From Ornithinibacillus bavariensis (GTDB lineage: Bacteria > Bacillota > Bacilli > Bacillales > Amphibacillaceae): a stretch of 64,000 nt of DNA. The stretch lies in NCBI RefSeq assembly GCF_018333235.1, contig NZ_BORP01000007.1:62001-126000 (forward strand), written 5' to 3'. This document shows, in pieces, positions 21,003 to 59,424 of the stretch (positions are counted from its first letter, which is position 1; the number at the start of each line of letters is the position of its first letter). The position numbers and the translations under genes were made by a program. Under the pieces are notes generated by a model. The model was not told the DNA's origin and did no database searches. It saw only the letters and a list, made by a program, of their open reading frames with translations.

Positions 21003-21295
21003 ATAAAAATAGAGCTAACCCCGTAACAAGGTTAGCTCTTTTGACAGTCTCATAACCATAATAAGTAATCAATACTCTTATGTACTTGATTGTCTCAATT
21101 GTCCTATCCTCGGGATCATTGATACAAATGAATACTGGCAGGTCTACTGACTTGTGATTAATAGCCTACTATAAGCCCTTCCCGTATATATTATATACAG
21201 TGGTTATGCTTATTTCGTCATCACTTACAGTTGCGAGGACAGTTCTAGATTTTCACTAGATTCCCTTTTAAGTTCACAACACCAACATCATCAAT
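21003..21295 (-). promoter_or_regulatory. Cobalamin riboswitch with intrinsic terminator
   Basis: On the minus strand the leader of the DUF4430/ECF pair shows the conserved core AAAAGGGAA followed by a short hairpin (GTGAAAATC between TCTAG and CTAGA), an AACTGTC...GCAACTGT block, and the B12 box AAGTCAGTAGACCTGCC (21137-21153). Short complementary arms (21290-21295 with 21118-21123) can close the aptamer. An expression-platform hairpin AGAGCTAACC/GGTTAGCTCT followed by ATTTTTAT lies at 21003-21040, 40 bp before the start codon, so cobalamin binding should cause premature termination. Matching is by eye to the known consensus. Confidence 0.88.
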
Positions 21296-21346
21296 TTTGT
21301 ATTCAATTCTATTAATTAGGATAACATACCATTCTAAAATTACAAG

Positions 21347-28531: not shown

Positions 28532-28560
28532 TTGACTTTATCAAAAGTTAAAATTATAAT
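28532..28560 (+). promoter_or_regulatory. Sigma-A promoter of the erm transcript
   Basis: TTGACT, a 17-base spacer, then TATAAT: a near-consensus vegetative promoter. It lies about 410 bp before erm and about 45 bp before the first leader ribosome site. The adjoining 28258-28531 region between rluB and this promoter contains no gene I can support. Confidence 0.88.
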
Positions 28561-28606
28561 ACTCTTGTGTTTATTGTAACTAATCTAAGGAGGGTTGCTT
28601 AAAATT

Positions 28607-28642
28607 ATGGGTGTAATTATTACTTTCCGTGCTTTGAACTAG
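28607..28642 (+). CDS. Erm leader peptide 1 (11 residues, MGVIITFRALN)
   Basis: Short ORF at the 5' end of the erm transcript. A very strong AAGGAGGG lies 12 bases before the ATG; an in-frame TTG four codons earlier is adjacent to it. The deduced peptide MGVIITFRALN resembles macrolide-sensing Erm leaders: ErmC-type leaders start MGIF and stall after an IFVI stretch, and the ErmD leader ends FPTLN, compared with FRALN here. Ribosome stalling in the presence of a macrolide would alter downstream RNA folding. Similarity is judged from memory of those leaders and the stalling codon is not known. Confidence 0.65.
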   Translation: MGVIITFRALN

Positions 28643-28742
28643 TAATTTAATACGTTCGAAGGCTCTGTTTTCGCTTACAGAGTAAACGGGATAAGTCTGC
28701 CCATTTTTAACAATCTTCCATGAAAATAAATTTCTATTATTA

Positions 28743-28776
28743 AGAGGAAAGACTGACTTTTCAATCTTTCCTTTTG
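28743..28776 (+). terminator. First terminator-like hairpin in the erm leader
   Basis: AGGAAAGA/TCTTTCCT stem (arms 28745-28752 and 28765-28772) followed by CTTTTG. The short U tract makes it weaker than the second hairpin. A smaller CTCTGT/ACAGAG hairpin (28663-28682) precedes it. Both are plausible parts of the attenuator. Confidence 0.5.
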
Positions 28777-28862
28777 TATTGTTATGAGAAAATATTTGAC
28801 TTTTAAATAAAGAAAAGTCTATTTTGGGTTGTCTTTGCATTTTATTTGCCAAGGATACTTTT

Positions 28863-28958
28863 ATGTCATACTGCAAACTTAATGATTCCGTTTACTGGAA
28901 GCCACAGACGCTTATGTCTGTGGTTTTTTTTGCGATCAGAGTCATAAATCCAATATGA
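28863..28958 (+). CDS. Erm leader ORF 2 (31 codons) running through the attenuator hairpin
   Basis: AAGGA seven bases before an ATG opens a 31-codon frame beginning MSYCKLNDSVYWKPQ and ending VINPI, with its TGA 14 bases before the erm start. The terminator hairpin at 28902-28931 is wholly inside this frame (about codons 14-23). A ribosome translating or stalled in the first half would cover the left arm and prevent the terminator from forming. Not recognised as a known peptide. It could be a fortuitous open frame, but the ribosome site spacing is good. Confidence 0.5.
   Translation: MSYCKLNDSVYWKPQTLMSVVFFAIRVINPI
28902..28931 (+). terminator. Strong attenuator terminator upstream of erm
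   Basis: Perfect eight-base stem CCACAGAC/GTCTGTGG, six-base loop and eight T residues, only 42 bp ahead of the erm start and about 340 bp after the promoter. Without antitermination most transcripts should end here. Confidence 0.88.
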
Positions 28959-28972
28959 AATGAAAGGTTTGA

Positions 28973-29845
28973 ATGATTATGACAAAAAGAAGAACAAAAG
29001 ATACGAATAAAAGATATACTTCCGGAAATCCTCCAAATTTTAGTGGGCAACATTTGCTTCATAGTAAAAGCATAGTAAAAGATATTGTGGACATTGCTCG
29101 CATTTCAAAAAATGATTTAGTATTAGAATTGGGGGCCGGAAAAGGGGCAATTACGGAAGCCCTAAGTAATAAAGCTAGAAAGGTTCTTGCTGTTGAATAC
29201 GATCAAAAGTTTATAAATAAATTAAAACAACTTGAAATGAAAAATACAGCGATAATCCAGCAGGATATATTAAAAATTTCATTACCACGAGAACATTTTG
29301 TAGTTGTGTCAAATATTCCATATGCCATCACTACAGCTATTATGAAAATGCTTCTCAATAATCCAGCAAACAGTTTTCAACGAGGTGTTATTACGATGGA
29401 AAAAGGTGCAGCAAAAAGATTTACGTCAACTATTGTAAAAGATCCTTATATAATAGCATGGAGAATGTGGTTTGATATCCGATATGTAAAAGACATTTCA
29501 AGAAAGAATTTCTCACCACCACCAAGAGTTGATTCTGCAATAGTTACAATTAAGAAAAAAACGGAACCAATTGTACCTGTAAACGAATATTTAATATTTT
29601 GGGGACTTGTCGACCACATACTTAAAAAGCCACAATTACCTATCGATTTAGCACTAAGAGGTATATTTACACCACCTCAAATGAAGCATCTAAAGAGAAA
29701 TCTTAAACTAAATGATGAGGTTCCTGTTGCTGCTTTATCGGAACAACAATGGGGATATCTATTTGACACAATGGTAAAGCATGTTCCAAAATTTAGATGG
29801 CCAAAAATAAATAAAGCCAAATTAAACCATCTTATTAAACGCTAA
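28973..29845 (+). CDS. erm: 23S rRNA (adenine-N6) methyltransferase, Erm(D)-like macrolide resistance
   Basis: Methylates A2058 of 23S rRNA and confers macrolide-lincosamide-streptogramin B resistance. SAM-binding motif ELGAGKGAIT (near residue 46), the catalytic SNIPYAITT (N-I-P-Y) near 114, and the FSPPPRVDSAIV C-terminal KsgA/Erm block are all present; 290 residues. The overall wording (NPPNFSGQHLLHSKSIV..., GVITMEKGAAKRF, LRGIFTPPQMKHL) is closest to the Erm(D)/Erm(K) branch from Bacillus. Alternative ATG at 28979. It is on the plus strand inside a minus-strand block and is framed by its own promoter, leader and terminator, so it was probably acquired as a cassette. Phenotype is inferred. 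Confidence 0.93.
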   Translation: MIMTKRRTKDTNKRYTSGNPPNFSGQHLLHSKSIVKDIVDIARISKNDLVLELGAGKGAITEALSNKARKVLAVEYDQKFINKLKQLEMKNTAIIQQDILKISLPREHFVVVSNIPYAITTAIMKMLLNNPANSFQRGVITMEKGAAKRFTSTIVKDPYIIAWRMWFDIRYVKDISRKNFSPPPRVDSAIVTIKKKTEPIVPVNEYLIFWGLVDHILKKPQLPIDLALRGIFTPPQMKHLKRNLKLNDEVPVAALSEQQWGYLFDTMVKHVPKFRWPKINKAKLNHLIKR

Positions 29846-56768: not shown

Positions 56769-58136
56769 ATGACTATTCAAGCATTAGTACAAAGTCAGCG
56801 AGATTACTTTTTAAGCGGAGAAACGCTCGATTATCGATTTCGTATAAACCAATTACGAAAACTGAGATCCATGTTAGAGAACTATGAGAAAAATATTTAC
56901 CGCGCCTTAAAGCAGGACTTAAACAAATCAAAATATGAATCCTTTACTACCGAATTAGGGTTTCTCTTTAATGAAATTAAGCATACTGAGAAACATCTTA
57001 AAGATTGGATGGAGGATGAATCTTGTGATGCCCCAATAACTCATAAAGGAACCAAAAGCTTTATCCGAAAAGAGCCTTACGGTGTCACCTTAGTCATTTC
57101 GCCATGGAATTATCCTTTGCAATTGGCAATTGCACCTGTAATTGGGGCAATATCTGCTGGAAATACAGTAATTATAAAGCCGTCTGAATATAGCCAATCC
57201 TCCTCTTCTCTGCTTGCAAAAATGATGAGAGAGACCTTTGACCCTAAATACATTGCTGTTGTAGAAGGAGCAAAGGAAGTTAGTGAACAACTATTACAGG
57301 AAAAATTTGACTATATTTTCTTTACTGGAAGTACCGCTGTAGGAAAAATTATTATGCGCGAAGCTAGTAAGCATCTAACCCCTGTTACTCTAGAGCTTGG
57401 TGGCAAGAGTCCTGCGATTATTGATAGAGATGCGAATATTGAGCTTTCCGCTAAACGTATTGTTTGGGGGAAATTTACTAATGCTGGTCAAACCTGTGTC
57501 GCCCCAGACTTTCTTTATATACACTCTAAAATCAAAGATAAGCTATTAAAAGAAATGAAAAAACAGTTAAAAAGCTTATATAAAAAGAACCCATTAGGTA
57601 ATGATGATTATGTAAGAATAATTAATGAAAACCATTTTAACCGCTTATTGACATATTTAGAGAATGGGACCATTGTGCAGGGTGGAAACATTGATAGAAA
57701 CCAATTAAAAATCGAACCGACTATTATCGATCACATTACTTGGAACGACCCTGTCATGCAGGAGGAAATATTTGGTCCAATTCTACCGGTTTTATCATTT
57801 GAAGACTTGGAAGAAGTCATAAGGACATTAAAAACAATGGATAAACCGTTAGCACTGTACTATTTTGGCGAAAAAGAAAAGAATCAAGAAAAAGTAATAA
57901 CTAAGTTATCCTTTGGTGGCGGATGTATTAATGATACGTTATACCATTTAGCAAACCCAAATCTGCCATTCGGGGGAGTCGGTGCAAGTGGAATGGGAGC
58001 ATATCACGGCAAATATAGCTTTGAAACATTTTCTCATCGTAAAAGCATTCTAAAGCAAACAACCAAATTCGATTTACCATTACGTTACCCAGGAGGAAAA
58101 CTAGCATTTTCCATTATTAAAAAAGTAATGAAATAG
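56769..58136 (+). CDS. Aldehyde dehydrogenase (class 3-like, YwdH type)
   Basis: NAD(P)-dependent oxidation of aldehydes. 455 residues. Catalytic glutamate in TLELGGKSPAII and nucleophilic cysteine in FTNAGQTCVAPDFLYI; the PWNYPLQLAIAPVIGAISAGN cofactor region and the C-terminal extension (SILKQTTKFDLPLRYP) fit the fatty-aldehyde type-3 group. The ATG at 56769 follows GGGAG by nine bases; an earlier in-frame TTG abuts it. Last gene of the plus-strand run. Confidence 0.9.
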   Translation: MTIQALVQSQRDYFLSGETLDYRFRINQLRKLRSMLENYEKNIYRALKQDLNKSKYESFTTELGFLFNEIKHTEKHLKDWMEDESCDAPITHKGTKSFIRKEPYGVTLVISPWNYPLQLAIAPVIGAISAGNTVIIKPSEYSQSSSSLLAKMMRETFDPKYIAVVEGAKEVSEQLLQEKFDYIFFTGSTAVGKIIMREASKHLTPVTLELGGKSPAIIDRDANIELSAKRIVWGKFTNAGQTCVAPDFLYIHSKIKDKLLKEMKKQLKSLYKKNPLGNDDYVRIINENHFNRLLTYLENGTIVQGGNIDRNQLKIEPTIIDHITWNDPVMQEEIFGPILPVLSFEDLEEVIRTLKTMDKPLALYYFGEKEKNQEKVITKLSFGGGCINDTLYHLANPNLPFGGVGASGMGAYHGKYSFETFSHRKSILKQTTKFDLPLRYPGGKLAFSIIKKVMK

Positions 58137-58150
58137 TTTTTAATACAATA

Positions 58151-58198
58151 ATAGGGGTAAGGCGTTAGAAGCGTTCAGAGCCTTTCCCCTATTTTTTA
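58151..58198. terminator. Terminator between the aldehyde dehydrogenase gene and dinB
   Basis: TAGGGG(T)AAGGC / GCCTT(T)CCCCTA stem with TTTTTT on the plus strand; the right arm covers the dinB stop codon. Confidence 0.8.
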
Positions 58199-59424
58199 TA
58201 ATCATCTAAAAAGTCCTTTTGAAAGCTTGTTCTTGGTTGATGATTATCAACCGCTTTAATATCAACAAATGGATTTTTCCCGAATTTTTGTGTTAACTCA
58301 TCAATTGCATCATAAAGCTTTTCCTTTTCTGCTTCCTTTTTGTACGTAAATAAGTCTAACTGCTTTACAATATTCTGTTTTTCTTCCATATCCGAAACGG
58401 TTATCCCTAATAAACGTATTGGTTCTTGATTCCAATGTGAATTAAATAATTCTAGTGCTACCTTTAAAATATCTTCTTTTTTTTCGATAAAATTTAACAG
58501 TTTTTTACTTCTTGTAATAGTCTTCCGGTCATGATAACGAACTGTAATTTGGACTGTCCCACCAGCAACCTGTTTCCGCTTCATCCGTATTTCCACATTC
58601 TCGGCTAATGCGGATAATAGACTTCTTATTTCCAGCTCATTTGTTGTATCCATTGGGAGTGTTTCAGAACTGCCTATACTTTTAAACTCATTTACAGCAT
58701 CCGGATCTACTGCACGAAGATCAATTCCATTAGCTCGATTTCTTAATCGCTCACCGTTAATACCTAGTATCTGTTTTAATTGATAAACATCAGCTGCTGC
58801 TAAATCTCCAATCGTATGAATGTCAATAGCAATTAGCTTTTCAGCGGTCTTCTTCCCTACCCCATACATCTCACCGACTGGCATTGGCCATAATTTATAA
58901 GGAATATCACGTTTTCGCAACACTGTAATACCCAGCGGTTTTTTCATATCAGAAGCCATTTTTGCTAAGAACTTATTCGGAGCAATACCGATACTGCAAG
59001 GTAAATCTAATTCATTCAATATTTTTTTTTGTAAATCTTCTGCGAGTTGAATCGTATTCTTTGGATCTACTACATCGGTAACATCCATATACCCTTCATC
59101 GATCGATACCGGTTCAACGAAGGGTGATATTGCATTTAATCTTTTAAAAATTTCTCTAGATGCATAGCGATATCGTTCAAAATTTGGTGTGCGTATTATT
59201 AGCTCTGGGCATAATTTTCTTGCCTGCCAAATTGGCATTGTGGTTTTAACCCCTTTGGCACGTGCCTCGTAATTACTAGTAATAATTATTCCTTTTCGTT
59301 CCTCAGGATTGCCAGCAACAGCAAGTGGCTTCCCTTTTAACATAGGTTCATACGCCATCTCCACTGAAGCATAGAAGCTATTCATATCAACATGAAAAAT
59401 AACCCGAGCTTTATTAGCGTTCAT
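58189..59424 (-). CDS. dinB: DNA polymerase IV (Y family)
   Basis: Translesion DNA polymerase. 411 residues. Catalytic site 1 in VIFHVDMNSFYASVE (metal aspartate), site 2 in SIDEGYMDVTD, helix-hairpin-helix thumb MYGVGKKTAEKL, little-finger domain (about 240-345), and the tail segment QLDLFTYK, a probable beta-clamp-binding motif. Corresponds to PolY1/YqjH. Confidence 0.95.
   Translation of the reverse strand: MNANKARVIFHVDMNSFYASVEMAYEPMLKGKPLAVAGNPEERKGIIITSNYEARAKGVKTTMPIWQARKLCPELIIRTPNFERYRYASREIFKRLNAISPFVEPVSIDEGYMDVTDVVDPKNTIQLAEDLQKKILNELDLPCSIGIAPNKFLAKMASDMKKPLGITVLRKRDIPYKLWPMPVGEMYGVGKKTAEKLIAIDIHTIGDLAAADVYQLKQILGINGERLRNRANGIDLRAVDPDAVNEFKSIGSSETLPMDTTNELEIRSLLSALAENVEIRMKRKQVAGGTVQITVRYHDRKTITRSKKLLNFIEKKEDILKVALELFNSHWNQEPIRLLGITVSDMEEKQNIVKQLDLFTYKKEAEKEKLYDAIDELTQKFGKNPFVDIKAVDNHQPRTSFQKDFLDDYKK

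Follow-up and report, generated by a model that had tools for sequence, protein, structure and literature searches.

The window analyzed in this study is a stretch of 64,000 nt from the genome of Ornithinibacillus bavariensis, and the feature of interest lies just upstream of a gene for a 23S rRNA methyltransferase related to Erm(D), found in the 3.47-Mb genome at G000:C7:90973. A promoter is followed by an 11-codon leader ORF, a conserved switch core, a weak hairpin (T1), a strong terminator ending in eight U's (T2), and finally erm (Table 1). Most of this anatomy had been claimed by an initial annotation made from the letters of the window, and it holds up well. The promoter described there as consensus (TTGACT-17-TATAAT) matches at 11 of 12 positions, and the transcript would start at about 28567. 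The 11-codon ORF does lie behind a ribosome site, AAGGAGGG, at a spacing (about 13 nt) that is long. The small and medium hairpins correspond to 28662-28683 and 28741-28776, and the eight-U terminator and the 31-codon second ORF (ORF2) are likewise present. The gene said to follow is indeed an erm (246.5 bits against the NCBIfam model Erm23S_rRNA_broad, above the curated cut-off of 212), while its start had to be moved: 28979 is probably correct rather than 28973, because most relatives start there. The annotation overlooked the long-range pairings, the attenuator family, and the other classes of genes that carry the module.

Table 1. Features of the region upstream of erm in the window. Positions count from the first nucleotide of the window.
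Feature	Position	Strand	Remarks
Promoter	28532..28560	+	-35 TTGACT 28532-28537; -10 TATAAT 28555-28560
Leader ribosome-binding site AAGGAGGG	28587..28594	+	largely doubles as 5' strand of helix P0
Helix P0	28589-28604 with 28705-28719	+	predicted; pairs leader SD with downstream strand
Leader peptide ORF MGVIITFRALN	28607..28642	+	tandem stops TAG-TAA
Helix Pc	28625-28630 (codons 7-8) with 28686-28691	+	predicted
Helix P1	28632-28639 (end of codon 9, Leu10, Asn11) with 28654-28661	+	predicted fold and alignment
Second antiterminator strand AGGCTCTGT	28660..28668	+	predicted; partner is T2 5' arm, 28904-28913
Hairpin P2	28662-28668 with 28677-28683	+	predicted fold and alignment
Antiterminator strand AGTAAACGGGAT	28681..28692	+	partner 28885-28896; forms in silico with leader occupied
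Hairpin T1	28741-28756 with 28761-28776	+	U-run after it in many relatives, broken in window
ORF2, 31 codons	28863..28958	+	ATG start, AAGG about 9 nt upstream
Antiterminator strand ATTCCGTTTACT	28885..28896	+	predicted; just 5' of T2
Terminator T2	28897-28910 with 28915-28928	+	fold and covariation; eight T at 28924-28931
erm, 23S rRNA methyltransferase related to Erm(D)	28979..29845	+	alternative start 28973

A consensus scan of the region found promoter-like sites in no excess (9 found, 9.6 expected), and T2, which folds at -16.4 kcal/mol, is absent from the listing of the consensus terminator scan. No Rfam family reaches its gathering score in the leader of the window, nor in eight related loci. 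The eight weak matches of the leader obtained at E up to 5 all fall below gathering score (the best is Spot 42, E 0.015) and were rejected. Elsewhere in the window there is a cobalamin riboswitch (21120-21301, minus strand, 104.6 bits).

One scan of GTDB genomes found 43 loci that encode a relative of the window's Erm, two of them fragments. With the window's own genome counted, at E up to 1e-60 the genus has such relatives in 2 of 11 genomes and the family in 21 of 159; at E up to 1e-70 the order has them in 12 of 397. The distribution of the gene is therefore patchy. Loci with identical 300 nt upstream were left out of the erm set. A homologous leader ORF was assigned by script in 50 erm loci (the window included), and by eye in L024, L025, L027, and L064. 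The Erm tree omits L045-L047 and an interrupted erm remnant (L002/L004), and eight of its rows have no assigned leader.

Most of the upstream sequences are built on the plan of ermD/K: the leader ORF, TTTGAAC, a loop holding the stop codon, GTTC, GGCTCTG...CAGAGTAAACGGGAT.AGTCTG, T1, T2, and the SD of erm. The leader of the window can be aligned with the ermD leader of Bacillus paralicheniformis (L030, peptide MTHSMRLRFPTLNQ) and with those of other erm loci. It belongs, as a divergent example, to the erm(D)/erm(K) family of transcription attenuators, and the earlier suggestion of attenuation of this kind is borne out. ermK has been described as being under transcription attenuation (PMC4335068, PMC5418344); passages of PMC2965389 hold nothing on erm(K). 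With erm(K)/erm(D) of B. licheniformis/paralicheniformis the window shares the order of elements, the sequence from SD through leader and core, both T1 and T2, and the place before erm. It differs in its broken U-run after T1, in the distance from T2 to erm (about 55 nt as against about 27 nt, a greater distance also seen in some loci with RLR leaders, such as L034 and L039), and in its leader peptide, MGVIITFRALN in place of MTHSMRLRFPTLNQ. A second leader peptide has been reported for ermD (PMC6333372), which I take in the L030 locus to be MQSKRDQSVLF. A peptide of this kind was looked for in the window and is absent; in the alignment TTA replaces its start codon.

The initial annotation noted no exact match of the leader peptide to known Erm leaders and suggested that its drug-sensing motif may be new. 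The difference from the published Erm(D)/(K) peptide is real, and the window peptide lacks the arrest motif R-L-R, an instance of the known macrolide-arrest motif +X+ (Arg/Lys-X-Arg/Lys). Inverse toeprinting has yielded erythromycin motifs such as +X(+), XP(X), +X(W), and XP(W) (PMC6238534), and the window peptide holds none of these three-residue motifs. In a larger set of 221 distinct cores, described below, 197 have +X+, 16 have leaders of the form ..[RH][AVST]LN, and 8 have another leader or none. One of the 16, L152 (RIWSRTLN), is regarded as different, and without it the set comes to 15 cores, 11 before erm and 4 before SDR oxidoreductase genes.

The leaders of the window's type, which I will call MG-type, occur in nine erm loci, the window and eight relatives from several genera. 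Besides MGVIITFRALN they are MGVIITFRALNC (twice, in Siminovitchia fordii and S. terrae), MGAIKTYRALNS, MGVIKTYRALNM, MGAIKTYHALNM, MGGIIIIRTLNR, MGSIIIFRSLNK, and MGAVNKSRALNK. The last contains K-S-R, formally +X+, and was assigned to the type by hand; the RNA core of its locus is nearest to MG-type cores. Gly2, Leu10, and Asn11 are found in all nine peptides, Ile4 in eight, and Arg8 in eight, with His at codon 8 in L051, while residues 5-7 vary (IIT, IKT, III, NKS). Eight of the nine loci make up one clade of the Erm tree (starred; SH-aLRT 95 by a quick method with no bootstrap), and L018 is placed elsewhere. The best promoter site 5' of the leader matches at 11 of 12 positions in six of the nine (the window among them), at 10 in one, and at 9 in two. 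A shorter leader, M[LI]x[IN][IF]R[AV]LN, precedes two further erm genes, L065 (MILIFRVLNW) and L066 (MIDIFRALNW), which form a separate branch of the Erm tree, and also four of six SDR-oxidoreductase relatives.

The loss of RLR could mean that the attenuator has decayed, leaving a sensor that no longer responds and an erm that is uninducible or leaky. The lack of any +X+ motif, the broken U-run after T1, and the replacement of Arg8 by His in L051 are all in keeping with decay. I judge it improbable, since an intact MG-type peptide persists in nine loci of several genera, with the conserved residues given above and eight loci in a single Erm clade, and since promoter, SD, and T2 have been retained, although the conservation of the peptide may be due in part to RNA pairing.

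The RNA was examined for conserved pairing in 37 aligned leaders, which remained after removal of four near-identical ones and of nine, including L015, that reach at least 450 nt. For P1, 99.0% of cells are paired, and for P2 99.2%, as against at most 61.4% and 58.8%, respectively, for slid controls. T1 shows 38 cells with changes on both sides (shuffle mean 15.4, slid at most 16) and T2 shows 36 (shuffle mean 14.1, slid at most 11). The case for P0 is less clear: 79.6% of its cells are paired, with 12 two-sided changes compared to a shuffle mean of 4.3, and one slid control also reached 12. Thus P1, P2, T1, and T2 are conserved by comparison with shuffled and slid controls, and P0 less clearly so. 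Pc has no covariation support in this set. The GGAG of the leader SD, within the strand predicted to form P0, is invariant across 28 aligned cores.

The two strands proposed as an antiterminator (28681-28692 and 28885-28896) are paired in 82.2% of cells, compared to 42.5-56.6% when slid, with covariation not above that of shuffles in the same 37 leaders. The duplex in the window has an energy of -37.2, the mean with shuffled partners being -26.1, and none of 200 shuffles was as strong. Of 50 loci, 44 give the duplex a z-score below -2, yet only four of the nine MG-type loci do so, the other five (L005, L007, L008, L015, L018) falling between -1.3 and -1.9; in L040 the z-score is -0.2.

The reading I prefer, and consider likely, is that erm is controlled as erm(K) is, by ribosome-mediated transcription attenuation, and that the sensor peptide is a variant one. 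The homology and anatomy of the leader are well supported, and attenuation is supported by the alignment to the erm(D) leader, the conservation of helices, a predicted antiterminator duplex that beats its shuffles, and the near constancy of Arg8. Induction, drug, arrest codon, and order of refolding, as I infer them, would be as follows. In the absence of drug, P0, Pc, P1, and P2 would fold, T2 would form, and most transcripts would end before erm. With an inducing drug, at a first guess a macrolide bearing cladinose, a ribosome would arrest on the 11-codon leader, at best guess with its P site at codon 7 and its A site at Arg8. For comparison, in ErmDL the stalled ribosome holds codon 7 (Leu) in its P site as Arg8 is about to enter (PMC8298421). 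The arrested ribosome would cover strands that hold the switch core together, so that 28681-28692 would be free to pair with 28885-28896 and 28660-28668 with the 5' arm of T2; T2 would be blocked by these pairings and erm transcribed.

Folding the transcript with and without a ribosome on the leader, as the initial annotation proposed, gave a mixed outcome. In the window the antiterminator forms in silico when the P site is at codon 1, 2, or any of 4-7. It does not form in free RNA, nor at codons 8-11 unless the SD is kept occupied, in which case all positions yield it. These are equilibrium folds of a truncated transcript. As a general rule this dependence on codon position was rejected, since it fails among the 26 loci folded. 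L007 resembles the window, the antiterminator forms even without a ribosome in L005 and in many RLR loci (L030, L010, L021, L023, L026, L012, L029, and others), and at codons 4-7 it hardly forms in five MG-type loci (L008, L009, L015, L018, and L051). The pattern of the window is treated as a hint, and the modeled folding of relatives supports the proposed stall codon and refolding unevenly.

The same attenuation might operate with the arrest farther upstream, at codons 4-6. These codons stand opposite R-L-R in an alignment of the leaders on Leu-Asn and P1. The leader alignments speak for this, as do the folds of the window, which allow P-site codons 4-7. I hold it to be somewhat unlikely, in view of the variation of codons 5 and 6 within the clade, where Arg8 hardly changes. 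For the preferred reading, the variable residues 5-7 speak against a strict arrest motif.

A serial cascade from T1 to T2 was considered and dropped, and the attenuation model does not rest on it, because T1 of the window re-forms once it is complete. With the SD and leader masked, at least 2 expected base pairs join the 5' arm of T1 to the segment that follows P2 in 34 of 36 loci, a count that covers the loci with both parts (13 had no match to the segment and one had no T1).

The initial annotation went further and saw a composite regulator with two translated sensors, ORF2 being the second and running across the terminator. There is precedent in ErmB, for which two leader peptides have been reported (PMC8274638), and ORF2 has an ATG with AAGG upstream. 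Read in the register that gives V-Y before the hairpin, 11 of 12 relatives have no stop until past T2 (the exception, L015, has one just before it). In L005 and L006 this frame opens with TTG where the window has its ATG, and its end overlaps the start of erm. An open frame is also what a constrained, stop-free hairpin would show. Five of the 12 relatives have no start codon in frame before T2, and by eye the SD-like AAGG stands at a usable distance in the window only. At the 3' end the frame shifts at the U-run between the window and L005 and L006. ATG ORFs of this length appear in 28.5% of 5000 shuffles of 28640-28972, and in 2.5% together with a 4-base match to the SD. Two translated sensors are thus unsupported, because ORF2 has no conserved start or ribosome site, and I regard ORF2 as very improbable in this role.

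The distribution of the switch core beyond erm was assessed with a covariance model (R1) that spans the core from SD to anti-SD and was built from 28 erm leaders. At E up to 0.001 R1 has matches in 73 of 156 genomes of the family, and at E up to 1e-4 in 132 of 397 of the order, far exceeding the genomes with erm. Among the matched loci that were read, the genes that follow are for the most part ABC-F, Mph-like, HflX, Mef-like, and RlmA-like. It scores the leader of the window at 144.5 bits, the window having been in the training set, and it found two other copies in the same genome, outside the training set, at E values of 4.7e-25 and 4.0e-14. It also gave +X+ leaders for four of the eight rows of the Erm tree that lacked one (G015, G427, G483, G498). 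I read 178 of the matched loci, a subset of those listed, where the window and two further places are given twice. These together with the erm set, after removal of identical 125-mers, constitute the 221 cores.

The gene after each core was classed by sequence pattern, nine cases by eye. The genes are Erm (60, plus one Erm(C)-like), ABC-F (51), Mph (35), HflX (26), Mef-like MFS (18), RlmA/TlrB-like (12), SDR (4), another MFS (3), and unrelated (2), with no gene within 900 nt in 9 cases, a count biased towards erm because 50 erm loci entered directly and R1 was trained on erm leaders. Representatives of ABC-F, HflX, SDR, Erm(C)-like, Mef, Mph, and RlmA were checked against NCBIfam. Curated cut-offs were passed by two Msr-type ABC-F, HflX, SDR (PRK08263), and the Erm(C)-like protein (270.1 against 212, broad Erm model); the Mef, Mph, and RlmA representatives and a split ABC-F on contig C4 match their models below the cut-offs.

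A tree of the cores was made from 121 columns, those of the ORF being left out, and has few supported branches. In it the core of the window groups with MG-type cores, and L065 and L066 are nearest each other and then to an SDR core. Gene class changes 53 times on this tree, compared to a mean of 126.5 when shuffled; the module tends to stay with its gene, yet it seems to have been exchanged often. Four of six SDR loci have R[AV]LN leaders, L260 has MIVIIRKLNS, and L261 has no such leader. Short hydrophobic leaders stand on this kind of core before SDR oxidoreductase genes at L195, L240, L249, L250, and L260.

The two strongest new points are that a defined clade has changed its motif and that the core has spread over many gene classes. 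Macrolide sensors of this class are customarily recognized by R-X-R, and a natural clade that has kept the RNA switch and replaced the motif is a ready-made test of which other peptides can arrest a drug-bound ribosome. The same core before at least seven gene classes offers a way to find antibiotic-induced genes whose role is unassigned, e.g., SDR. I would suggest, tentatively and as a possibility short of the probable, a portable RNA switch chassis in front of many unrelated resistance genes of Bacillales, with an exchangeable sensor: either +X+ or a hydrophobic ..R[AV]LN, the latter reading other ribosome-targeting drugs and existing in two forms, MG-type on erm and the short type on erm and SDR. 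If this were so, SDR would be an unrecognized antibiotic-induced gene.

Several described systems invite comparison. In rli80 of Listeria monocytogenes, which shares transcription attenuation, hflXr is reported to have an RLR leader, 14 residues in length (PMC6310831). Gene and leader motif differ from those of the window; the R1 core does occur before HflX genes. MsrDL (MYLIFM) is short, hydrophobic, and without +X+, requires the cladinose sugar, and stalls at its stop codon (PMC10314930); it resembles the short leaders MILIFR.. and MLVIFR.., in peptide only, and the window leader less so. The leader of tlrB (yxjB) in B. subtilis, MIIQFIRYR, likewise controls a 23S rRNA methyltransferase, and differs in its RYR motif, in that no overlapping antiterminator was identified, and in NusG-dependent pausing (PMC6851288). 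The authors of PMC4335068 saw no homology of the mef(E) leader to that of erm(K).

Literature searched with the leader peptide strings matched only FRALN, in papers that by title concern unrelated subjects. No published link was found for Erm leader classes (among the matches listed), for erm of Oceanobacillus, or for attenuation with erm, nor for ABC-F with HflX, for Mph, or (among the matches listed) for SDR, in a search of largely open-access papers. Passages of PMC8116656, on Oceanobacillus, show no such leader.

The genome of the window thus contains three copies of the attenuator. The copy at C1:922924 (L137) has the leader (M)MCAGRLRFPTLNQ and is followed by an RlmA-like gene and an Msr-type ABC-F; about 3 kb after this attenuator lies the interrupted erm-like remnant (C1:926237-926706, within G000:C1:922500-927500). 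The copy at C4:303633 (L138, G000:C4:301000-304300) has the leader MLIVRLRFPTLNS or MRLRFPTLNS and precedes an ABC-F split into two ORFs of 353 and 147 codons. A further weak match to R1 within the window (58088-58208, E 0.12) is probably due to chance. Two cores, L135 and L125, have no recognized resistance-type gene downstream, where there is instead a lipoprotein-like ORF or one for an ABC-transporter ATPase. At L175, an RLR leader of the attenuator core precedes the Erm(C)-like gene; erm(C) is known for translation attenuation.
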